IMG/VR virus record: IMGVR_UViG_3300023175_000222
Coordinates: 1-22,010 of that record
DNA length: 22,010 nucleotides
Strand: one strand, 5' to 3'
Source: a virus
Shown here piece after piece: positions 3,574 through 22,010 of the stretch. Below the pieces are notes generated by a model. That model had not been told where the DNA came from, did not search any database, and saw only the letters and a program-made list of their open reading frames with translations. Both the position numbers and the translations under genes were made by a program. How positions within the stretch are numbered: the stretch's first letter is position 1; each line of letters starts with the position of its first letter.

Positions 3574-3605
3574 TTCAGATTGACTCATAAGGAGATATGT
3601 ATATA

Positions 3606-4268
3606 ATGAAATTCAGTGAACGCACTCTTACAATTCTTAAGAGTTTTGCTACCATCAACAAATCTATTCAGATGAAAGAGGGTAATGTTCTTAAGACAAT
3701 AACACCAGAACGCACTCTAATTGCGTCTGCTACTATACCAGATCAGATCCCATCGGAAGCATGTATTTACGATATGTCACGTTTTTTGTCGATTTTATCG
3801 CTTTATACAGATCCCGATGTGGAATTCCATGATAAATACTTCATCATCTCAGAAGGGAAACGTAGGACTAAATACTTGTTCGCAGACGTTTCAATGATTC
3901 ATGCAGCGCCTGAGAAGGATGTCAAAATTCCTTCGCAAGACGTTGTTGTTGATGTCTCTTGGGACGATATGCAATCTGTACTGAAAGCCGCAGGCGTTCT
4001 ACAGTTTAGCGAGGTCGCATTTGTCGGAGAAAACGGCACGTGTTATCTCAAAGCAATCGACAGTACTAATGAAGGAACCGACGACTACGGTGTCGAAATT
4101 GGTGAAACTGACGATGAGTTTAAGATCATTATCAAAACTGATAACCTTAAACTTCTACCACAGGATTATAGAGTTACGCTTTGTTCGAAAGGTATCTCTG
4201 AATTCAAAGGTGAAGATGTCACGTATTTCGTGGCAATTGATTCTAAGTCGACTTACAAAAAGGGGTAA
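3606..4268 (+). CDS. 45: Sliding clamp, DNA polymerase accessory protein (T4 gp45)
   Basis: Encodes 220 residues, close to T4 gp45 (228). The frame extends to an ATG at 3597, only two bases after GGAG (3591-3594); the ATG at 3606 has proper spacing and gives MKFSERTLTILKSFATINKSI, which aligns with the T4 N-terminus (MKLSK...LLKNFATINSGI). Further matches are IYDMSRFLSILSL and the C-terminal TYFVAIDSKS. In T4 the trimer encircles DNA, holds the polymerase and, when loaded, activates late transcription with gp55 and gp33. It is preceded by a sigma70-type promoter and followed by a small conserved gene, then a terminator. Confidence 0.95.
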   Translation: MKFSERTLTILKSFATINKSIQMKEGNVLKTITPERTLIASATIPDQIPSEACIYDMSRFLSILSLYTDPDVEFHDKYFIISEGKRRTKYLFADVSMIHAAPEKDVKIPSQDVVVDVSWDDMQSVLKAAGVLQFSEVAFVGENGTCYLKAIDSTNEGTDDYGVEIGETDDEFKIIIKTDNLKLLPQDYRVTLCSKGISEFKGEDVTYFVAIDSKSTYKKG

Positions 4269-4608: not shown

Positions 4609-5562
4609 ATGACTATTGATGCAAAATCAAACGAAGTACTTTGGGTTGAGAAGTACCGTCCAAACAAAATCTCTGACACGATCCTACCAGAAGACACTCG
4701 CAAGATGTTTGCGAAGTTTGTCTCTGATGAAAACATTCCCAACTTACTTCTATCAGGTGGACCAGGCGTAGGTAAGACTACGATTGCGAAAGCTATGTTA
4801 GAAGAACTAGGTTGTGACTACATCGTTAAGAACGGATCTCTTAACGTAAACATTGACTCTATCCGTTACGACATCTCTACATTCGCATCTGCAGTATCAC
4901 TGACAGGTGGTCGCAAGTATGTTATCTTTGATGAAGCAGACTATTTGAATGCAGCGAATGTTCAACCTGCATTGCGTAACTTCATCGAAGAATACTCTTC
5001 TAACTGTGGTTTCATCTTTACGTGTAACTTCAAGAACCGTATTATCTCACCTCTGCGTTCACGTCTATCTGAGATTGACTTCTCTATTGACAATGAAGAG
5101 AAACCTGCACTTGCGGGTGCGTTCTACAAACGTGTACTTGCAATTCTTGACAACGAAGGTGTTACATATGACAAAGGTGTTATCGCTAAAGTCGTACAGA
5201 AATACTTCCCAGACTTCCGTCGAGTATTAACAGAACTGCAGTCCTATGCAGCGTCTGGTTCTATTGATGAGGGAATCTTCATTAATCTGAAACAAGAGTC
5301 TATTGACGAAGTGTTTCATATGTTGAAGACAAAGAACTTTACTGAAATGCGCAAGTGGGTGGCAAAGAACTCTGATCAAGATATGAACGAAATGTTCCGT
5401 CGAATTTACGACTCTGCAGATAAATATGTTGAGTTCCGTAGTCTGCCTGGATTCTGTGTGACGACTGCAGACTACATGTACAAGTCTGCGTTCGTTGCAG
5501 ATCAGGAGATTAACCTTGTTGCATTCTTAACTGAAGTGATGATCGAATCGGAGTATAAATGA
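4609..5562 (+). CDS. 44: Clamp loader large subunit, AAA+ ATPase (T4 gp44)
   Basis: Encodes 317 residues (T4 gp44: 319). EKYRP at 14-18 is the usual N-terminal motif; Walker A is GGPGVGKTT (50-58), Walker B VIFDEAD (105-111), sensor 1 TCN (138-140), and SPLRSR (147-152) supplies the arginine finger in the position of the SRC motif. Four copies with one gp62 load gp45 onto primer-template junctions using ATP. The ribosome site is weak (GTGGTG). In T4 the next gene is gp62; here four unrelated ORFs come between. Confidence 0.95.
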   Translation: MTIDAKSNEVLWVEKYRPNKISDTILPEDTRKMFAKFVSDENIPNLLLSGGPGVGKTTIAKAMLEELGCDYIVKNGSLNVNIDSIRYDISTFASAVSLTGGRKYVIFDEADYLNAANVQPALRNFIEEYSSNCGFIFTCNFKNRIISPLRSRLSEIDFSIDNEEKPALAGAFYKRVLAILDNEGVTYDKGVIAKVVQKYFPDFRRVLTELQSYAASGSIDEGIFINLKQESIDEVFHMLKTKNFTEMRKWVAKNSDQDMNEMFRRIYDSADKYVEFRSLPGFCVTTADYMYKSAFVADQEINLVAFLTEVMIESEYK

Positions 5563-9785: not shown

Positions 9786-9812
9786 CTTCTAACTGAAGAT
9801 ATGATATAAATA
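9783..9812 (+). promoter_or_regulatory. T4 late promoter with sigma70-like -35, before the helical gene pair
   Basis: An exact TATAAATA lies at 9805-9812. TTGACT at 9783-9788 is 16 bases upstream of TATAAA, so host-type recognition is also possible, as at the hsp20 promoter. Predicted start near 9818. Confidence 0.75.
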
Positions 9813-13319: not shown

Positions 13320-13496
13320 TTATTTTCTCTTCTGCGCTTCTTCTTTTTGTTTTTCCAAGAACTGTATCAACATAGCAAAATATAAATCTCTTTCAAACGG
13401 CATCAAATTTTCTATATCTGATATTGAGTATTTATGATGCTGCACCAGTGAAAACACAATCTGATAGTAATCTTTCAGACTCAGATGGCACAGCAT
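13320..13496 (-). CDS. 51: gp51-like baseplate hub assembly protein / tail chaperone second part
   Basis: A 58-codon frame starts at the ATG overlapping the gp26-like stop (TAATG) and ends one base before the tape measure start. The product (YYQIVFSLVQHHKYSISDIENLMPF in two halves around residue 20; ERDLYFAMLIQFLEKQKEE after) resembles short gp51 proteins of marine T4-like phages and also the second domain of tail assembly chaperones (I-x-x-(I/L)-E-x-(M/L)-P-F-x-x-x-x-Y). It can be reached by -1 slippage at U UUU UUC at the end of gp26, giving a fused protein of about 292 residues. T4 gp51 itself is much longer (249), so the name is by position and pattern. Confidence 0.65.
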   Translation of the reverse strand: MLCHLSLKDYYQIVFSLVQHHKYSISDIENLMPFERDLYFAMLIQFLEKQKEEAQKRK

Positions 13497-13508
13497 TAGA
13501 CGAAAAAA
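13437..13508 (-). promoter_or_regulatory. Candidate -1 ribosomal frameshift signal
   Basis: On the minus strand the gp26-like frame ends AGT TTT TTC GTC TAA; T TTT TTC (13508-13502) is an in-phase X XXY YYZ heptamer. After a 5-base spacer, ATGCTGTGCCA (13496-13486) can pair with TGGTGCAGCAT (13447-13437), 11 continuous pairs with two G-U. An inner stem, ATCTGA with TCAGAT, is also possible. Slippage leads into the 58-codon frame. Confidence 0.65.
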
Positions 13509-14197
13509 CTTCGTAATCCTTCAATGACAAAGGTTTTATCATCACCATTAGAGTTCTTGTATTTCATTTCATGACGAAGTTTTGGCATGGTTTCAAAAAA
13601 CTTTTGAATAGACTGCATAACATCACCAGTCATATTGTTCATGAATTCATCGATATCATCTTGACTATAGTCTTTAAAACTATAAGTGTCGTTTTCAGAT
13701 GCCAACTGATCAAGACAAGATGTCATGATGTGATAGTTTGCAAGAGGATCGTTGGGATCCATCATGATAATTCTTTGGAACTCATCAATTGTGGGGTATT
13801 TCAAAAACAAAGTGAACTCTTCGTTGACTTTAACCTTCTTGCTATGATCCTTATCTTTGACGATAGACACATCATCAATATTAAGTTCTAGTTCTACTGT
13901 TTCTTCAGTGTCTGGATCTTTGATCATAAATTTAATTTGGTTGTCCACAGACTTTGCACGGATAACCATCATGACATATTCCAAGTCAAACATTGCTAGT
14001 TTGGATACATCTGTTTTTACTAGACAGTTCTGTACGACTTGTTTGGCTGCAATGAGTTCTTGTTCACGGTCATTAGATTCTTGTGCAACCAAAAGAATCT
14101 TTTCTTCCTTGACCGTAAAGGGTCTGTATTTGATTTTTCTACCAGATGATGGAAGTTTCAATTCAAAAATAGGTAGATCAATTTTAGGTAAAGACAT
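13496..14197 (-). CDS. 26: Baseplate hub subunit, gp26-like
   Basis: Encodes 233 residues (T4 gp26: 208). The start LPKIDLPIFELKLPSSGRKIKYRPFTVKEEKILL is the pattern of the T4 gp26 family in marine phages, followed by a helical region and a strand-rich part (KFMIKDPDTEETVELELN). AGGAG stands upstream of the ATG on the minus strand. In T4 gp26 is a hub assembly protein; its place just before the tape measure, with a possible frameshift into the next frame, also fits a tail assembly chaperone (lambda G-like). It ends ...RSFFV just past a slippery heptamer. Confidence 0.8.
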   Translation of the reverse strand: MSLPKIDLPIFELKLPSSGRKIKYRPFTVKEEKILLVAQESNDREQELIAAKQVVQNCLVKTDVSKLAMFDLEYVMMVIRAKSVDNQIKFMIKDPDTEETVELELNIDDVSIVKDKDHSKKVKVNEEFTLFLKYPTIDEFQRIIMMDPNDPLANYHIMTSCLDQLASENDTYSFKDYSQDDIDEFMNNMTGDVMQSIQKFFETMPKLRHEMKYKNSNGDDKTFVIEGLRSFFV

Positions 14198-14212
14198 AAT
14201 ATAGTTCTCCTG

Positions 14213-14983
14213 TTAAATTCCTATACTTCGTGTTAGGTTATTAAATGAGTTGTTTAAACGTTGGAAGTTGTTTACTGTATCTTGAATACTGTCACCAAGG
14301 AAACCTTGGTTGACTGTTTGTTGTACCACCCCTGCAAATCCTGCAACTGCACCAAGGATGTCGAAGAAACCAGCCCCACGTCCTAGTCTTGAAGTTGGTG
14401 ATCCTGCTCTGAGACCAGAGTATTCAATTCTATCATATGAGAACTGAACAGGAAGTGTAAGGTAGGAGTCATTAGATTCCCATGCAAGATCCAAATCACC
14501 AATCTGACTTGGCCATGCTTTATCTAAAATGACTTCATAATATCTACTTGGATCTTGATCTGTCGAAAAGTGTTTAATACTGATACGACAAGAATATTCA
14601 TCTTTGTAACCAATTTCAAATGGAAGTTTACCATTGTCTTCTGATAAGTTACCCCCTGCAGTTCCAATGTTGATAACACTTTGCATCCATGAATGAAAGA
14701 ACCTCAATATCTGATGGTCGCTGTCAACCATGAAGATTGTGTTGACTGCAGTATTCTGTACACTCATTGGAAATTGTTTTGGTAGTGCAGCGACTGATTC
14801 ATAGTTTGCAACGTTTAGGGATACAGAAGGAATCTGTGCAGTCTTACAGAAGAACGTCAGATCCCTTGGTCCAATCACACTATTGACTGCAGATGGATAT
14901 CCTGTTATTGTAACTTGAAATAAGTTAGCGTGAGAAGGTCCCCCAAACTTATCAAATGTGGATTTAAATTCTGATATGCGCAT
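14213..14983 (-). CDS. 54: Tail-tube-fold baseplate protein, gp54-like tube initiator
   Basis: Encodes 256 residues. Segments NLFQVTI, then FFCKTAQIPSVSL, RFFHSWMQSV, then AWPSQIGDLDLAWESNDSYLTLPVQFSYDRIEY follow the tail tube fold order of T4 gp19 (NLFQVEI, FQCKATALP, and WPTNVGELQLDWDSNNEI). The extra C-terminal tail of about 65 residues (Gly/Ala-rich then Asn-rich helix) and the length differ from gp19 (163) and suit gp54, which caps the baseplate and starts tube growth. In T4 gene 54 follows 48 on the same strand; here they are on opposite strands. It could instead be a second tube protein. Confidence 0.7.
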   Translation of the reverse strand: MRISEFKSTFDKFGGPSHANLFQVTITGYPSAVNSVIGPRDLTFFCKTAQIPSVSLNVANYESVAALPKQFPMSVQNTAVNTIFMVDSDHQILRFFHSWMQSVINIGTAGGNLSEDNGKLPFEIGYKDEYSCRISIKHFSTDQDPSRYYEVILDKAWPSQIGDLDLAWESNDSYLTLPVQFSYDRIEYSGLRAGSPTSRLGRGAGFFDILGAVAGFAGVVQQTVNQGFLGDSIQDTVNNFQRLNNSFNNLTRSIGI

Positions 14984-15591
14984 TATCCGTTCCTTATGAT
15001 TCTACGAGAGTCTGAGTAGACCTTGTTCTTCGATGCACCCACGAAGTTCGCAGTTGGTAAAAATAAAGCTATGTCCCATTCTACAGGATTGACATAGAAA
15101 AATTTAGACCTTGTCTGACTATTCAGATAGTGTTTAATTGTTGGTTTAAACTCTTTGTATTTCGATGCCCCATTAAGTACTTTATACGAAAGTTTAAGTT
15201 TAGTTGTTTCATCATACTTATCGTTTGTCGTCAAATCATATAGTGCATCCATAAGTTTTGCACGTAAAATAGGTGGTAGGTAATGCATGTTAATACCCAT
15301 AAATCCTTTTGGTGCAGGACCAATGGGAAAGATCAAAGGAAACCTATCGTAATATGGAAGAGTCTTTTTGTGTTTTGCTTCATACGCAAAAAAGTACATA
15401 TTTCCATATGCAAGATTGTTGGATGATCTGTCTTTCAACTGAGTTTGAACTACCTCAGAGTTAATTGGTCCCTTCTTAACTGCCTTCTGCGCAGTATCTC
15501 TGTACCACTGTCGTGCAGAAGATTCACGTGCAGGAACTTGCCCTGAACGAATACCTCTAAGTAGAATGTCGTTAAAGAGGGTTGCTGCCAT
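14983..15591 (-). CDS. Conserved virion-region protein of unknown function (YYDRFPL family)
   Basis: Encodes 202 residues. The segment NMYFFAYEAKHKKTLPYYDR, then FPLIFPIGPAPKGFMGINMHYLPP in the order aromatic, PYYDRFPL, GxNxHYLPP, followed by RAKLMDALYD and a C-terminal ALFLPTANF, is well conserved in my memory of T4-like marine phages and some other large phages, always unnamed. Strong conservation and its place between gp4 and the tube initiator suggest a structural or assembly role, perhaps in neck or baseplate. It is coupled on both sides (start overlaps the upstream stop, stop overlaps the downstream start region). Confidence 0.7.
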   Translation of the reverse strand: MAATLFNDILLRGIRSGQVPARESSARQWYRDTAQKAVKKGPINSEVVQTQLKDRSSNNLAYGNMYFFAYEAKHKKTLPYYDRFPLIFPIGPAPKGFMGINMHYLPPILRAKLMDALYDLTTNDKYDETTKLKLSYKVLNGASKYKEFKPTIKHYLNSQTRSKFFYVNPVEWDIALFLPTANFVGASKNKVYSDSRRIIRNG

Positions 15592-15935
15592 TATTCTGTC
15601 TCACATGTACAGGGTTCGTTAAAACACTGACCACACACCCATTCCTTCATCAACTTCTTGATGGTTGCGAGTGCCTTCTTACCGTCTGGGTGATTGGGGT
15701 TGACACTCACTTCATCACCGTTCACGAAGTCAGAGATGTTTGCAGACTTACCCAACGCATTAATTGCCTTGTGCAGTGGATCTTTAGGATCGTACTTTCT
15801 TTCGAAGCCAGGTTTACCTCTAAGTTCAACCCACTTCTTATCGCCTTTGTTCCACATCTTCAGAACATCTTGATCTTTCCCACGAATGAGTTTCAGTTTG
15901 ATGCCTTCTGATATGAATGTTGTATACGACTTCAT
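15591..15935 (-). CDS. Small basic protein with C-terminal cysteine cluster, unknown
   Basis: Encodes 114 residues. The frame is open further upstream, but the ATG at 15935 overlaps the gp4 stop (TAATG) and gives MKSYTTFISEG, a beginning common among short T4-like phage proteins. The middle is basic and polar (KGDKKWVELRGKPGFERKYDPKDP). The end, CGQCFNEPCTC, holds four Cys in a CxxC-x5-CxC arrangement that could bind zinc. Function unknown; it is in the late structural unit, so a virion assembly role is possible. Confidence 0.65.
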   Translation of the reverse strand: MKSYTTFISEGIKLKLIRGKDQDVLKMWNKGDKKWVELRGKPGFERKYDPKDPLHKAINALGKSANISDFVNGDEVSVNPNHPDGKKALATIKKLMKEWVCGQCFNEPCTCETE

Positions 15936-16393
15936 TACTTTATCCCTAGTTCTTTTTCTGTCATGATGACAAACTCCCAACCACGTTTTGCACAGTACTC
16001 TCTTGCTGCTTTCCACTTTGCATCATTGATCCCCCAAGTCTTGACTTCGTTTAGAAATCTACGAGACACACGTCCTGTAGGAGTTGCGTTTTTCTTTCTA
16101 GGATCTGGTGGTAACGTTTGTTTGTATGGTTTTATTTCAACCACAACTGTCTTTAAGTTACCATCACGATCTTTTCTGTTCACAATAACATCAGGAAAAT
16201 ATCGATGAATATGATTGTCCACAGGTGATCTGTAGGGAATAATCAATTCTTCTGACTGCCACCAGTTTACATCTGGATGTTCATCACACCATTTAAAGAA
16301 TTTCAACTCCCATAAACTACGATATATGATGTTAGTTGGGTCGCCTTTATACTTTTTCGGATTCTTTGGACGGAATCTACCATTGTATGCCAT
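15935..16393 (-). CDS. 4: Head completion protein, gp4 (endonuclease-like fold)
   Basis: Encodes 152 residues (T4 gp4: about 150). The open frame begins earlier with TTG at 16432, but ATG at 16393 gives MAYNGRFRPKNPKKYKGD, matching the T4 start (MAYSGKWVPKN...KYRGD). YRSLWELKFFKWCDEHP, WQSEELIIPY, RRYFPDV-like and VVVEIKP follow the TnsA/PD-(D/E)XK-like fold expected for gp4, which joins the filled head to the tail in T4. It is the first gene of the minus-strand late unit, about 38 bases after the predicted transcript start. Confidence 0.9.
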   Translation of the reverse strand: MAYNGRFRPKNPKKYKGDPTNIIYRSLWELKFFKWCDEHPDVNWWQSEELIIPYRSPVDNHIHRYFPDVIVNRKDRDGNLKTVVVEIKPYKQTLPPDPRKKNATPTGRVSRRFLNEVKTWGINDAKWKAAREYCAKRGWEFVIMTEKELGIK

Positions 16394-16413
16394 AACCAAT
16401 TTCACTTTTTGTT

Positions 16414-16421
16414 TATAAATA
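16414..16421 (+). promoter_or_regulatory. T4 late promoter, rightward, for gp48 and baseplate genes
   Basis: Exact TATAAATA at 16414-16421; the start would be near 16427, about 30 bases before the gp48 ATG. It forms one arm of the 9-bp inverted repeat TTATAAATA / TATTTATAA. Confidence 0.85.
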
Positions 16422-16436
16422 GATTTACTCAATAGG

Positions 16437-16444
16437 TATTTATA
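16437..16444 (-). promoter_or_regulatory. T4 late promoter, leftward, for gp4 to tape measure
   Basis: The plus strand reads TATTTATA, so the minus strand carries an exact TATAAATA. The start would be near 16431, about 38 bases before the gp4 ATG. It faces the rightward promoter at 16414, so the two transcripts overlap at their 5' ends. Confidence 0.85.
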
Positions 16445-16457
16445 AGGTTTTAATCAA

Positions 16458-17546
16458 ATGGCAGGAAGTAACAGACCAGAGGTTATGCGTCTCAAAGATT
16501 CATATGCCCGCAATCCAACATTGTTTTCCTTTCCTCAAAACAAAACGGGGCACTCTATTCTGTTCGTTTTCAAGGAATACGACTACAAAGGATACACTAG
16601 ATCAGAAAACAGTCCTTCTTTCTATTCTCAAAGAAGTCGTAATGTCGGAAGGGGTATTGGTCAAAGATCCAATGCGATCTCTTCAACCATTAGTGGGTTT
16701 GGTAGTATAGAACTCCCATTCCCTAAACAACTACAAGATAATACTTCTCTACGTATTAATGCGTTTGAACGTAATGCAATTACTGAAGCAGTTGTGAATG
16801 CAATGTCAAACCAAGGTGTATTCAACAATAATGCGGCGCTTGGTGAAACTCTTATGGCTAAAGCAGGCGAAGTTGCAGGACTTATCCAAGACGTAGGTGC
16901 AGGAGCAGTCAGTATGTTTACGGCGGAAGGACAATCCCAAGCAATGGGTGCTCTTACTTCAGGATTAGAAGGAATTATGAACACAGACACCGCTACTGCT
17001 ACTGCAGCAGCTGGATACTTAATGAGAACTCTCACTAGTAAACTCAGTGGAGACATGGCACGAACTATCGACATGGTAACAGGAACTGCAGTCAACCCTA
17101 AAGAAGCGCTTGCGTTTGAAGGTGTTGATTTAAAATCTCATTCTTTCACTTGGGAACTATACCCTTCTAATAGACAAGAGACAGAGACGATTAACAAGAT
17201 TACGAAACTGTTTAAGAGAAACGCACTACCAGAAACACAAGACTTGGTTGATGGTGTATTTGAACAAACGTTTTTGAAATATCCATCTACTGTAGAGATT
17301 AAACTAGTTGGAACAAATCCAGAGTATTTCCCAAGATACAAACCATGTATGATTAAATCAGTTAATATAAGTTACGAAAACTCTGCGGGTACTGTCCCAA
17401 TCATGCAAGGTGGTGTGCCTGGTTCTGTAACACTTTCTGTTGAACTTCAAGAAATGTCGGCACATAACCGTAATGATGTTGAAGAAGTTATTGGTGAACG
17501 TGATGTGGTAAGTGCACAAGCAAACCAACTACCAGCTGATTTCTAA
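16458..17546 (+). CDS. 48: Baseplate tail tube cap, gp48
   Basis: Encodes 362 residues (T4 gp48: 364). A Ser/Arg/Asn-rich N-terminal half with SSTISGFGSIELPFPK, an Ala/Gly-rich helical middle, and a tube-like C-terminal part (SFTWELYPSNRQETETINKI ... KYPSTVEIKLVG ... YKPCMIKSVNISYEN ... TLSVELQEMS) fit the gp48 architecture, in which a tube-fold domain caps the baseplate centre. The residues near the end resemble T4 gp48 (PCQIQSIRFDKTPNG, then TLEITMREI). First gene of the rightward late unit. Confidence 0.85.
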   Translation: MAGSNRPEVMRLKDSYARNPTLFSFPQNKTGHSILFVFKEYDYKGYTRSENSPSFYSQRSRNVGRGIGQRSNAISSTISGFGSIELPFPKQLQDNTSLRINAFERNAITEAVVNAMSNQGVFNNNAALGETLMAKAGEVAGLIQDVGAGAVSMFTAEGQSQAMGALTSGLEGIMNTDTATATAAAGYLMRTLTSKLSGDMARTIDMVTGTAVNPKEALAFEGVDLKSHSFTWELYPSNRQETETINKITKLFKRNALPETQDLVDGVFEQTFLKYPSTVEIKLVGTNPEYFPRYKPCMIKSVNISYENSAGTVPIMQGGVPGSVTLSVELQEMSAHNRNDVEEVIGERDVVSAQANQLPADF

Positions 17547-17557
17547 AAGGATAAGAT

Positions 17558-17935
17558 ATGGCGAAATATTTTGAAAACTTTCCAATCGTAGATTACAATG
17601 GTAAGAAAGTGAGAGACATTACTAGAAGAAACAATTTTCTTAAAAGTGTTTCTACCAATCCAATGTTGTATCTGCCATATACTGTCAAACAAAATGAACG
17701 TGCAGAGGATGTCGCACAGTTTTATTATGGGTCGGTAGATTATGTTTGGTTGGTATATATGGCCAATCAAATTATCGATCCTTATTACGAATGGCCTATG
17801 GACGAGGAAACCTTCAACAAATATCTCATTGCAAAATATGGGGAAGTTTCTGGTGAGACAGGAGATGATGTTGTCGATTGGACAAAAGAAGAAGGTAACG
17901 ATGAAAATATCGTTTACTACTATAAGGAAGTATAA
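17558..17935 (+). CDS. 53: Baseplate wedge protein gp53, N-terminal part
   Basis: Encodes 125 residues. YFENFPIVDY, DITRR and the LysM-like segment VKQNERAEDVAQFYYGSVDY followed by VWLVYMANQIIDPYYEWPM are typical of gp53 (T4: 196 residues; PEELANAIYGNPQLYWVLLM...DPYYGW). The expected C-terminal N-Y-E-Y-E segment is missing and instead appears in the next ORF, in the same frame after TAA-GAT-ATG. Gp53 clamps the baseplate wedges together. The start has AAAAGG upstream and shares TAAGATATGGC with the start of the next ORF. Confidence 0.8.
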   Translation: MAKYFENFPIVDYNGKKVRDITRRNNFLKSVSTNPMLYLPYTVKQNERAEDVAQFYYGSVDYVWLVYMANQIIDPYYEWPMDEETFNKYLIAKYGEVSGETGDDVVDWTKEEGNDENIVYYYKEV

Positions 17936-17938
17936 GAT

Positions 17939-18196
17939 ATGGCAGTTGATCAGGTTATTCTTGCACCAGAATCATTTAGAACGATCTATCTAAGAAAAGA
18001 AGATCGTGTAATTCTTCGTACAGAACAGGGACGTAAGATTATTATTAAACGTATTATTCCTGATGAGTGGAAAGAATATCGTATCTACGAATATGAGAAA
18101 GATAGAAACGAAGCAAAGAAAGATATTTTTCTTTTTGATAATAGATTCTTACCACAGTTAACAAGGGAGTTCGTTGAATCTATTAGCGACGAATAA
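17939..18196 (+). CDS. 53: Second part of a split gp53 (C-terminal baseplate wedge segment)
   Basis: Encodes 85 residues. EYRIYEYEKDRNEAKKDIFLFDNRFLPQL... corresponds to the conserved gp53 ending (Y-E-Y-E-x3-N-x-x-K-R-x-I-x-L-L), and the two ORFs together (210 residues) match the normal gp53 length. They share one reading frame with a single TAA at 17933-17935 between them. AAGGAAG at about 17922-17928 offers a ribosome site for separate initiation. It may be a true split protein, a stop readthrough, or a sequence error; the independent ribosome site favours the first. Confidence 0.7.
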   Translation: MAVDQVILAPESFRTIYLRKEDRVILRTEQGRKIIIKRIIPDEWKEYRIYEYEKDRNEAKKDIFLFDNRFLPQLTREFVESISDE

Positions 18197-18199
18197 TAA

Positions 18200-19594
18200 A
18201 TGGCAGAATTTAACCCAACATACGCTGTTTGGAAAAATATTGTAGTAACTCCTCATGACGGAAACGCAGAAGAAGATATTACAAAACTTTGCACCAGACT
18301 TGACTTCACGCAGAGTATTAATTCTAGTGCGTGGACTGGTTCTATGCGCATTTTGGATTCTTCGGGTTTGTTGGAAGGAAAGGGGTTTAAACTTAGAGGA
18401 GAAGAAAAACTAACCTTCGAAGTGGAGACTTACGATGGTAAGATGGAAGATCCTCTTAAAATCACGGCACAAATTCTTAGTATCACAGAAGTCTCGCCAC
18501 TCGAAAACCTTTCTGGGGTAACATTCACGATAAACTTTATTTCCAAAATAAGTTATACTGCAGGTTTAAGAAGAGTACGTGAAGCGTTCGTTGATCTTCC
18601 AGCTTCTGAAATTGCAGAAAAGATCTTTAAAAAGTATTATGCAAACGGCAGACTTGTAGAGGACACAAGCGCTCCAAATGAAATCATTCCTTTCAATGCA
18701 AAGAAATTTAGAACAACCGATCTAGGTAGTAGACAAAGAAAACCTTTTTACATACAACCTACAGAGGGGGTGATGCAGTGCGTTATTCCCAATCTACCAC
18801 CCAGCGATGCAATGAATTTTCTTACACAAAGATCTTTCAGTCAAAGTTCGCCTTCTTGTTCCTTTAGATTTTTCGAAACTTTTACAGGTTATTGGTTTGT
18901 TACAGACGAATTTATGATTCAACATGGATTAGAAAATAATCAAACCATTGAAGAATTTTCTTACAACGTTCAAAACTCCCAAGACGGACAAGATGCAGAA
19001 GTGCAAGTGAAATCTTTTAAGGCTTTCAAAAACCCTTCACGTGTAAATACCGCAACTGATTTGCATAGTGGTGGTTATAGAAACAAAGTCATAGAAGTAG
19101 ATCTAGGAAGAAGACGTGCAAGAAACATCGATTATGATTACATTGAAGATGCAGACTACGTTGATATGTCTGGTCAAAAAACATCTTTGAGAAATGTACC
19201 TCATACAGAAGAATATATTAGAGAAACTTTTACAGATGAAAATGCACGTAGAATGCTTGTGTTCAAAGACTGGTATGATGAAAACGGACAAACACTAAGA
19301 TCTAATCAACACTATCCAGAAATTCTTCAAAACAGAAGTGTTTATACTCATCACTTAGGACAAACAATAGTTTCTGTTAGTTTGAATGCGTCAAGATTAG
19401 ATCTAAGGCCAGGCAAAATTATATCGGTAAGATTACCAAAGTTTACAATTGCTTCTACACCAGACTCACCTTATAATGACGAGTTGTCTGGTAATTATTT
19501 AATTGTATCTATATCACATTCTTTGCAAGACGATGTGATGACAACAAATGCGTCTCTTGCCAAGTATGGATGGAGTGGAGAATATAGACCATGA
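18200..19594 (+). CDS. 27: Baseplate hub protein, gp27-like
   Basis: Encodes 464 residues (T4 gp27: 391). The start has two related beta domains (DITKLCTRLDFTQSINSSAWTG; LTFEVETYDG ... ITAQILSITEV ... TFTINFIS), then a helical domain (PASEIAEKIFKKYY; SDAMNFLTQRSF), and a C-terminal beta domain (LDLRPGKIISVRLPKF ... SGNYLIVSISHSL) as in hub proteins of contractile tails. The order and its position directly before the gp5-like spike identify it; sequence similarity to T4 itself is low. The trimeric hub links the spike to the tube. It overlaps the next gene by ATGA. Confidence 0.75.
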   Translation: MAEFNPTYAVWKNIVVTPHDGNAEEDITKLCTRLDFTQSINSSAWTGSMRILDSSGLLEGKGFKLRGEEKLTFEVETYDGKMEDPLKITAQILSITEVSPLENLSGVTFTINFISKISYTAGLRRVREAFVDLPASEIAEKIFKKYYANGRLVEDTSAPNEIIPFNAKKFRTTDLGSRQRKPFYIQPTEGVMQCVIPNLPPSDAMNFLTQRSFSQSSPSCSFRFFETFTGYWFVTDEFMIQHGLENNQTIEEFSYNVQNSQDGQDAEVQVKSFKAFKNPSRVNTATDLHSGGYRNKVIEVDLGRRRARNIDYDYIEDADYVDMSGQKTSLRNVPHTEEYIRETFTDENARRMLVFKDWYDENGQTLRSNQHYPEILQNRSVYTHHLGQTIVSVSLNASRLDLRPGKIISVRLPKFTIASTPDSPYNDELSGNYLIVSISHSLQDDVMTTNASLAKYGWSGEYRP

Positions 19595-21147
19595 TGGAAT
19601 CGGGTATTGGCATAACTAACCCACTATTTTTTATTGGTGTGGTGGAAAACAACAGAGACCCTCACTTCGAAGGTCGTATCAAAGTTCGTGCGTTTGGTAT
19701 TCACGGTGACAACTCGGAGATCCCAACCCCAGAACTTCCATGGGCAATCTGTGCAAAGGGTGACTATGATCCAAACGGATCTGTGCCACCATTGAATTCA
19801 TTTGTATACGGAATGTTTTTGGACGGACGTGCAGCGCAACATCCACTTGTACTTGGACTTATTCCTTCACAATTTGCAGAACCCATCAACCCAGAACAAA
19901 ATGGATGGGGTGTCGTACCAGATTGTAACGGAGAACTACTAGCGCAGGGCGCAAGACCAGAAGATTTTGGACAACCACAAAACTCACGACTTGCACGTGG
20001 TGAAAACTTGGAAGAAACTTATGTTCTTCAACAAGAGATGAACCGTGTTGAAAATGTATATATTGCAGGTCAACAGGAAGTAGAACCAAACGAGGACGAA
20101 CAAATAACATGGAGTGAACCTAGTCCTGCATACGGTGCAAGGTATCCATACAACCGTGTCATATCAACTGCAAAACACTCAATTGAAATAGACGACACGC
20201 CAGGCGCAGAACGCATTATGATTTACCACAACGAAGGATCGTATGTGCAAATTGATTCACGTGGATCTACCACACACAAGTCTGTGGGCGACAAATACGA
20301 AATCAACGACAGACAACAACATGTGTATGTTGGTGGTCCAAGTATGGTTACGATCAATAGTGATGCATATGTCTATGTCAGAGGTAATAAAACTGAAGAG
20401 ATCGAAGGTGACTACAACATGATTGTACGTGGAAACGCACAGTTTGGTGTTGGTGGTTCCTTCTTTGTTAACGCAAGTGATCAGTTGCAAATGAGAGCCG
20501 CAGACGTGATGTTGGACGCAAACGTTTCCACATTAGAAATCTTTGGTAAAAAAGAAATCAAAATGACAACACCTATTGCGTTCTCTATGACTGCGAAGAA
20601 GATGTTCCAACACATAGGGGAAGAGTGGCACGGAAAGTCTGATGGATTTATCAAGTTTGAATCTACGGATGGTTTCTGGCAACAGTCAACAGACGCAGGT
20701 TTCAACTTCAAGGCTGCAGAGAATATCCAATTCCAAACAGACGAGACGTTCTCACTCAAAGCGGGGGATGCAGTTAATGTTGATCCAGGCAGTGGTATTA
20801 TCGATCTTGCAAGTGGATCTTCAGTAGAATCAGAAGCGGCAGAAGCAGAGGATGCGCAAATCGCAGAACAAACTCAGATGCCAGAACCACCCGCAAAGTC
20901 TACTGCGATTGTTAACTCTGAAATCGCATCAATGGATGCACCAGTATCTATGGCAACAGATGATAGTGCAGATCCATCTCATGAAGAAGAAGGTAGTAAC
21001 TACTTCGACAATATGGGTGTCGCACAATTAGAGAAAGAAAATCTAACGGTTGGGAATACATATAAGATAGGTAACACGAATTATACATTACAATCTAATC
21101 CAAGTGATCCAGAAGATTCTAGTCTTTGGTACTTTGAGGAACAATAA
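19591..21147 (+). CDS. 5: Central spike protein, gp5-like, without lysozyme domain
   Basis: Encodes 518 residues (T4 gp5: 575). Residues 12-95 form the OB-fold (FFIGVVENNRDPHFEGRIKVRAFGIHG ... WAICAKGDY, split here by a few residues), followed by a linker and a repetitive beta-helix region (about 210-400; repeated V/I-x-G/N strands such as YVQIDSRGSTTHKSVGDKYE, YVYVRGNKTEEIEGDYNMIV). In T4 gp5 a lysozyme domain sits between OB-fold and helix; no such domain or catalytic pattern is seen here. The last 100 residues are acidic and Ala/Ser-rich with a small terminal domain (VGNTYKIGNTNYTLQ). Confidence 0.8.
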   Translation: MMESGIGITNPLFFIGVVENNRDPHFEGRIKVRAFGIHGDNSEIPTPELPWAICAKGDYDPNGSVPPLNSFVYGMFLDGRAAQHPLVLGLIPSQFAEPINPEQNGWGVVPDCNGELLAQGARPEDFGQPQNSRLARGENLEETYVLQQEMNRVENVYIAGQQEVEPNEDEQITWSEPSPAYGARYPYNRVISTAKHSIEIDDTPGAERIMIYHNEGSYVQIDSRGSTTHKSVGDKYEINDRQQHVYVGGPSMVTINSDAYVYVRGNKTEEIEGDYNMIVRGNAQFGVGGSFFVNASDQLQMRAADVMLDANVSTLEIFGKKEIKMTTPIAFSMTAKKMFQHIGEEWHGKSDGFIKFESTDGFWQQSTDAGFNFKAAENIQFQTDETFSLKAGDAVNVDPGSGIIDLASGSSVESEAAEAEDAQIAEQTQMPEPPAKSTAIVNSEIASMDAPVSMATDDSADPSHEEEGSNYFDNMGVAQLEKENLTVGNTYKIGNTNYTLQSNPSDPEDSSLWYFEEQ

Positions 21148-21149
21148 AG

Positions 21150-22010
21150 ATGGCAAAAAGTAATTGTATTGACTTAAACGATCAGATATATCAGTCCAGA
21201 CAGAGACTTGGCGGTGCTCCCATCAGTAATGGTGGGGAACTGAACGTATATGCTATTGAAAATTATAAAGCAGAATTCTTAGAAGGGATCAAAACAGACA
21301 GTTTAACTGATCCTGTAGATCTTCAAGTTTCTCTTCATGGAAATGCATTTTATGAATCGTTAACAGATTTTAATAACTTTTTAAGTGGAAGTCAATTAAC
21401 AGACTATCCTGAAGTGTTGGAAAGATTTGAAAAGGGCCCTATTTCCACAATTGAATTCGCAGACTTTTGTGGTGCGTATAATTACACCCCACCTAAGATT
21501 AAAACTGCGTCTACACTTGCAGACTTGAACCTATTAAAAAATTTGAATTCATATTATAAAGATCCTAATTCAAGTATTCTTGGTGGATTTTGTAGTATGA
21601 TGCCTCAGGTATTTGGCGCAATTGGTGGTTTCTTTACTATTATTGGTTCTGTTGCAGGTCTCATCAATGATGCAATTGCATTCTTAAATAAAATTAGAAA
21701 CCTTGAAGATCCGATTAAAGCGATCATTGAAAAGATAACAGTAAAAGCACTTATCGAATCTATTAAAGAAAAAGTGGGTCAGGTTATTGAAGAAACTTTT
21801 GAGTCGGTAGTGAATGCAGTTAAAAACTTTGATCTTGAAGAAACTATTGGTGAAATAAAAACATACATCAACGAAAAGGTATTTGCAAAAGCTGCACAGA
21901 TTAAAGATGACATTTCTGCCATTCTTACAGACGAAAATAAAGAGGGTTTGGTTGAAAAGGTAAAAGCACTTTTTGATTATGCAGTTGGACTTTTCTCTAA
22001 TCCATCTTTG
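21150..22010 (+). CDS. N-terminal part of a large protein, probably virion-associated (incomplete)
   Basis: An ATG at 21150, two bases after the spike stop, opens a frame that runs to the window end (287 residues). The first 140 residues are polar with a few Cys (SNCIDLNDQIYQSRQRLGG; IEFADFCGAYNY), then a hydrophobic Gly/Ile stretch (QVFGAIGGFFTIIGSVAGLI) and a long amphipathic helix region (KIRNLEDPIKAIIEKIT ... VIEETFESVVNAVKNF). I do not recognise a domain. Lying next to the spike in the late unit it is likely a tail or puncturing-related structural protein; the missing lysozyme function could be in the unseen part. Confidence 0.65.
   Translation, partial: MAKSNCIDLNDQIYQSRQRLGGAPISNGGELNVYAIENYKAEFLEGIKTDSLTDPVDLQVSLHGNAFYESLTDFNNFLSGSQLTDYPEVLERFEKGPISTIEFADFCGAYNYTPPKIKTASTLADLNLLKNLNSYYKDPNSSILGGFCSMMPQVFGAIGGFFTIIGSVAGLINDAIAFLNKIRNLEDPIKAIIEKITVKALIESIKEKVGQVIEETFESVVNAVKNFDLEETIGEIKTYINEKVFAKAAQIKDDISAILTDENKEGLVEKVKALFDYAVGLFSNPSL

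Follow-up and report, generated by a model that had tools for sequence, protein, structure and literature searches.

The DNA analysed here (the window, a virus record of 22,010 bases) carries T4-type replication genes together with structural genes, the latter forming two divergent sets on either side of a 64-bp gap, with the gene for gp4 (head completion) to its left and that for gp48 (tail-tube cap) to its right (Table 1). Two 9-base sequences within the gap, TTATAAATA and TATTTATAA, form a perfect inverted repeat with a 15-bp spacer, and each arm holds an exact T4-type late box, TATAAATA, directed toward the gene on the far side. A first-pass annotation of this DNA had described such a repeat between gp4 and gp48, each arm acting as a late promoter for the far-side gene; its coordinates proved exact, both gene assignments agree with the protein-family matches, and the two facing boxes are predicted to be promoters of the divergent sets.

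Table 1. Features of the window around the gp4/gp48 junction and the genes of the sliding clamp and its loader
Feature	Position	Strand	Family or remark
gp45-like sliding clamp, late-transcription activator in T4	3597..4268	+	phrog_223; PF09116
gp44-like clamp loader	4609..5562	+	phrog_168; PF21328
Baseplate hub family protein, left arm	13496..14197	-	phrog_150
Tail tube family protein, left arm	14213..14983	-	phrog_45
gp2-like DNA end protector, left arm	14983..15591	-	phrog_429
Unnamed ORF, left arm	15591..15935	-	no family
gp4-like head completion (head closure), first left-arm gene	15935..16393	-	phrog_218 E 4e-59; PF08722
Late box TATAAATA, rightward into gp48	16414..16421	+	9-base arm 16413-16421; predicted start 16427
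15-bp spacer with both predicted starts	16422..16436	.	length and sequence vary among relatives
Late box TATAAATA (TATTTATA on the + strand), leftward into gp4	16437..16444	-	9-base arm 16437-16445; predicted start 16431
AAGG, likely Shine-Dalgarno of gp48 (putative role)	16444..16447	+	overlaps the end of the leftward box (TATTTATAAGG)
gp48-like baseplate tail tube cap, first right-arm gene	16458..17546	+	phrog_230 E 2e-41; PF11091
gp53-like baseplate wedge subunit, right arm	17558..17935	+	phrog_232
Tail protein, right arm	18200..19594	+	phrog_350
Baseplate hub subunit / tail lysozyme (gp5-like), right arm	19591..21147	+	phrog_430

The exact box occurs four times in the window (8196 +, 9805 +, 16414 + and 16437 -), the mean in shuffled windows being 1.25, with one shuffle of 100 reaching four; the facing pair, sought as TTATAAATA-N{5,30}-TATTTATAA, is found once in the window and in none of 100 dinucleotide shuffles. 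No further exact late box is present in the window upstream of either structural arm, so the earlier claim that the pair controls both arms is likely to hold, with the reservation that a weaker box of the CATAAATA type lies on the left arm at 13429-13435. Neither a sigma-70 two-hexamer site nor a -35 element was found in 16300-16600, nor a terminator-like site at the junction of the facing boxes, and the RNA fold of the junction is no better than that of shuffles (z +0.29 and +0.61); an RNA hairpin, a terminator, and a sigma-70 promoter were rejected as candidates on these grounds.

Elsewhere in the window intergenic TAAATA boxes precede the genes at 4609, 7764, 8264, 9882, 10512, and 10984. 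In the segment 8196-8707 the Hsp20 gene has an exact late box 61 bases upstream. The segment 8823-10315 contains a 320-aa ORF and two small ORFs of 70 and 74 aa, with the exact box at 9805 upstream of the first small one; neither the 320-aa nor the 70-aa ORF was assigned to a PHROG or Pfam family, and the 74-aa ORF is without a Pfam family. The gp4-like protein (15935-16393) matches the N-terminal domain of Tn7 TnsA-like endonucleases (PF08722, E 4e-23).

The features of a T4-type late promoter found at the junction are the box, its placement at leader length before a structural gene, the missing -35 element, and a gp45 clamp gene in the same DNA, while the late sigma factor gp55 is found in relatives. 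The gp55 family, phrog_234, was picked out using T4 gp55; another probe, phrog_1740, was dropped, being without a match in T4, the positive control. Of the 16 records searched, from relatives and named phages, 12 gave a match to phrog_234, the near relatives G003 and G031 among them, and none of the 14 cellular controls did; there was no match in the fragments G001, G002, G004, and G005, and gp55 was not seen in the 22-kb window fragment itself. The available text of PMC1524935 and PMC2984593 gives T4 late consensus sequences matching TATAAATA or its shorter form NATAAATA, and late boxes require little else according to the accessible part of PMC2988020.

Conservation of the facing boxes

As megablast of window positions 13400-22010 against named phages gave no match, relatives were gathered by protein searches, with 80 gp4 loci obtained from virus contigs and 14 loci from a search with gp48. 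At gp4 identities of 68% or more, every one of the 41 loci has the facing NATAAATA pair, and in 24 of them both boxes are exact 8-mers. The first-pass annotation had named conservation of the inverted repeat as a check on its proposal and loss of one arm in close relatives as the outcome that would speak against it; both arms are kept in 41 of 41. The gp4 genes of the six nearest lineages show 75-84% DNA identity; across these lineages 16 of 16 box columns are invariant versus 37 of 152 third-codon columns of gp4. All six share CCTTATAAATA, in which the leftward box runs into AAGG, and their spacers, 13, 14, or 15 in length, change in sequence as well. In a distant group of loci the box directed to gp4 is degenerate and the opposite one is retained.

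Further gp4 queries, from the cyanophage S-RIM2, T4, and the pelagiphage Mosig, brought the set to 249 loci, of which 246 had enough upstream sequence and 97 remained after the removal of near-duplicates. In this survey the looser box [ACT]TAAATA was used and the pair was sought within 97 bp of gp4. A divergent neighbour of gp4 is found at 96 of the 97 non-redundant loci and a facing pair at 85, a count not adjusted for kinship, where shuffles averaged 0.55 and never exceeded 2 in 100 rounds; back-to-back pairs occur at four (shuffle mean 0.65, maximum 4). Of the 12 loci without a facing pair, 11 retain a box directed away from gp4, one of these (L055) having also a gp4-ward box that does not face it, and a single locus (L220) has neither. 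Nineteen named phages include 12 with a facing pair, one (Ah1) with abutting back-to-back boxes, and six with neither; for Cr30, a member of this set, the stretch examined precedes gp48 far from gp4 and is not a proper test.

Of 18 ORFs scanned as the divergent partner of gp4, 14 encode gp48, three a tail tube protein, and one gp53, and the facing pair is retained with each of the three partners; it has outlived the change of the partner gene or has been re-formed. Two sets of loci show variant arrangements at the gp4 start codon. In L049, L054, L060, L076, and L080 the sequence TATATATTTATATG lies over it and there is no clear gp4-ward box, so that gp4 may have a variant promoter or a very short leader; in the cyanophage set L132-L211 the gp48 box commonly overlaps it (TATTTATG), and for gp4 a leader of about 16 nt is predicted.

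In whole records the facing exact pair is present in 11 of 30, once in each and in ten of them at gp4, versus none of the 30 in the reversed-sequence control, which is independent here; the back-to-back exact pair is found in one of 30. With the 7-mer pattern, 18 named phage records yielded facing pairs in five records at seven places, four of them at gp4, and back-to-back pairs in three records; ATAAATA is the same read backwards, so in this set the reversed control is the back-to-back pattern and is not independent. The facing pair is not peculiar to the phage studied here: at gp4 it is old and widespread among T4-like phages, T4 included.

Predicted use of the junction

Judged from sequence, the two boxes are very probably ordinary T4-type late promoters packed face to face. 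They would be recognised by the late RNA polymerase of the phage, composed of the host core and gp55 and activated by the gp45 clamp, so that transcription of the gp48 operon would begin near 16427, from the left box, and that of the gp4 operon near 16431, from the right one. The start positions are expected from the span of the T4 late box, -13 to -6 in the accessible text of PMC1524935, and the actual ones may move by 1-2 nt. The RNAs of the two arms would then share about 5 nt (the predicted overlap equals the box-to-box distance minus 10), in line with the overlap of a few bases anticipated in the first-pass annotation. The predicted leaders measure 31 nt to gp48 and 38 nt to gp4, and each box falls in the early part of the opposite operon's predicted RNA.

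Taking the usual size of a polymerase footprint as the basis, two complexes at the junction would overlap sterically: both boxes lie inside one footprint, hence polymerase would occupy either orientation on any one DNA copy, never both together. In the available portion of PMC2988020, the late footprint is extended by 13 bp at its upstream end by the clamp. Mutual exclusion, as the first-pass annotation suggested, would follow from this overlap wherever the two promoters share a single DNA copy, and might have a regulatory role.

The likely reason for the arrangement is packing, as each box could sit within the leader of the opposite operon. Both operons need a late promoter and such a promoter needs little beyond its 8-bp box, which would explain why the arrangement has been kept. 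At 82 loci the median junction leaders are 26 and 26 nt, and single NATAAATA sites elsewhere have a median leader of 52 nt (127 sites, 55 of them with at most 45 nt). Junction leaders are therefore within the single-box range, and the facing orientation is the outcome of two such leaders in most gaps of this size. Packing is not a full account, however. The intergenic length (SD 16.4) is more variable than the box-to-box distance (SD 3.9), and in the L016-L032 group facing boxes 19-21 bp apart lie inside gaps of 76-97 bp, which would also fit a shared-box or back-to-back placement. A shared-box layout is seen at the 26/51 junction, where the non-facing late box TATTTATAAATA is palindromic; it was observed in teqsoen (L127, 4812-4863), and T4 has boxes at the matching places (L131, NC_000866 116441-116461). 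Since the 26/51 gap is 50 bp, the facing layout is not the sole way to fill so short a gap.

The first-pass annotation went further and proposed a shared switch balancing the two operons, possibly by mutual exclusion. In such a switch the exclusion would be under selection because it couples head completion to the baseplate, so that one goes up as the other goes down, or noise is damped. The gap, less variable than the intergenic length, is in its favour, as are the footprints, which necessarily overlap in every facing case, and the overlap survives the altered geometry in Ah1, whose boxes abut. Nevertheless, we consider such a switch unlikely. No fixed geometry is kept, as facing boxes are spaced anywhere between 4 and 23 bp and 24 of 39 sister pairs differ in spacing, for which reason a phase-locked geometry was also rejected, and the predicted RNA overlap is lost at the 7-bp gap of T4. 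The change of partner genes implies that no particular pair of products is being balanced, and, many genome copies being present late in infection, exclusion on single copies would be averaged out. As to precedent, in the accessible text of PMC12825309 competition by itself is enough to repress the opposite RNA and to reduce noise at strongly activated bidirectional promoters of E. coli, yet the five promoters tested showed no competition at basal activity.

It is decidedly improbable that the junction holds a single promoter, with the other box being an RNA or translation element (an AU-rich leader, a RegA-type site, or the Shine-Dalgarno neighbourhood) or a chance occurrence. The right box does end in AAGG, likely the gp48 Shine-Dalgarno sequence, in the six nearest lineages, and 10 of the 12 loci without a pair keep one box alone. 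Both boxes, however, fit the late consensus and are invariant in near relatives, and facing pairs are found again where the partner gene and the flanks differ. The fold is no better than that of shuffles, and each RNA predicted from the junction contains only one arm of the repeat.

Two further readings involve the orientation of the clamp. In the accessible part of PMC2988020, T4 late activation depends on which strand is nicked, from which comes the idea that clamp orientation selects the arm. Oriented gp45 clamps would activate a single polarity, and the strand onto which passing replication forks load them might choose the arm transcribed from each copy, exclusion making the choice all-or-none, the site being an old directional selector; this has a very low probability. 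Slightly lower still is that of a site whose firing promoter is picked by the strand with the loading 3' end, the site following or reporting the direction of the fork. A facing pair is indeed one DNA site open to both orientations, and gp45 and gp44 are encoded in the window and gp55 in relatives, but this property is common to any two opposite late promoters, and its use by facing ones is conjecture. A bidirectional terminator or protein operator built from the 9-base inverted repeat, perfect as the repeat is, can be practically dismissed, as there is no terminator-like site, the A/U-only arms fold weakly, the arm is the late consensus itself, and the spacing at the centre varies between 4 and 23 bp, whereas that of an operator is fixed. 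Taken as a pair of ordinary late promoters, the junction looks like an old, compact two-way start site and not a new kind of switch.

Comparison with T4 and other two-way promoters

The closest known counterpart is the 4/53 junction of T4 (NC_000866), TATAAATA-7 bp-TATTTATA, where two exact boxes likewise face each other, flanked by divergent structural genes that include gp4. It differs in its gap (7 bp versus 15) and in the partner (gp53 versus gp48), and at 7 bp the predicted RNAs of the T4 junction do not overlap. T4 late promoters in general share with the window site the box sequence, short leaders, the lack of a -35 element, and the clamp and clamp-loader genes; the window site departs from them in having two boxes that would overlap in one footprint. 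T4 has a second facing pair, between inh and segE (L130, 112022-112041), whose counterpart in teqsoen lies between inh and a uvsW-like helicase gene. Facing NATAAATA pairs are also found in T4 at segB/tRNA-Ile and at I-TevI within td, neither being a divergent gene pair. In Aeromonas phage Ah1 (L125) gp4 is preceded by abutting back-to-back boxes, TATTTAGCTAAATA (gap 0); as annotated, gp48 lies 335 bp away, and the annotation may have missed a nearer start.

Oceanic and E. coli phages of the T4-like group have alike retained a two-way late start site by gene 4, despite replacement of the partner gene. According to the available text of PMC7029224, late promoters could not be predicted for pelagimyophages in one published survey; the gp4 junction offers a practical landmark at which a late box of the pelagimyophage type is directly visible. 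The T4 junction, in turn, provides one site, with an internal control, at which one could measure how polymerases exclude each other and how the orientation of the clamp affects the choice of promoter. The accessible parts of PMC3037559 and PMC2984593 treat late boxes upstream of single genes. Searches covering facing, overlapping, or divergent late promoters, 5'-end maps of T4, and genes 4 and 53 together found no paper in literature that was mostly outside subscription; the T4 4/53 pair may well have been noted elsewhere.

Beyond T4, the site can be compared with two kinds of promoter pairs. In the sigma-70 bidirectional promoters described by Warman et al. (PMC12825309, PMC10268837; available text), as predicted here, the orientations exclude each other on each copy and the RNAs diverge. 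For five tested E. coli pairs, PMC12825309 describes competition and lower noise once one side is activated. These promoters share one symmetric -10 element, their starts being most often 18, also 10 or 23 bp apart (range 7-25), whereas the window site has two separate facing boxes 15 bp apart and starts that nearly coincide; with separate boxes and predicted starts overlapping by 5 nt, it was not assigned to that class. P2-like phages such as 186 also have promoters that face each other; in the accessible text of PMC7498355 these are 40-60 bp apart, have repressor sites, and serve the lysis-lysogeny choice. The window site, with a 15-bp spacer whose sequence varies in relatives, was not placed with these switches: its two promoters would both be late promoters of one class.
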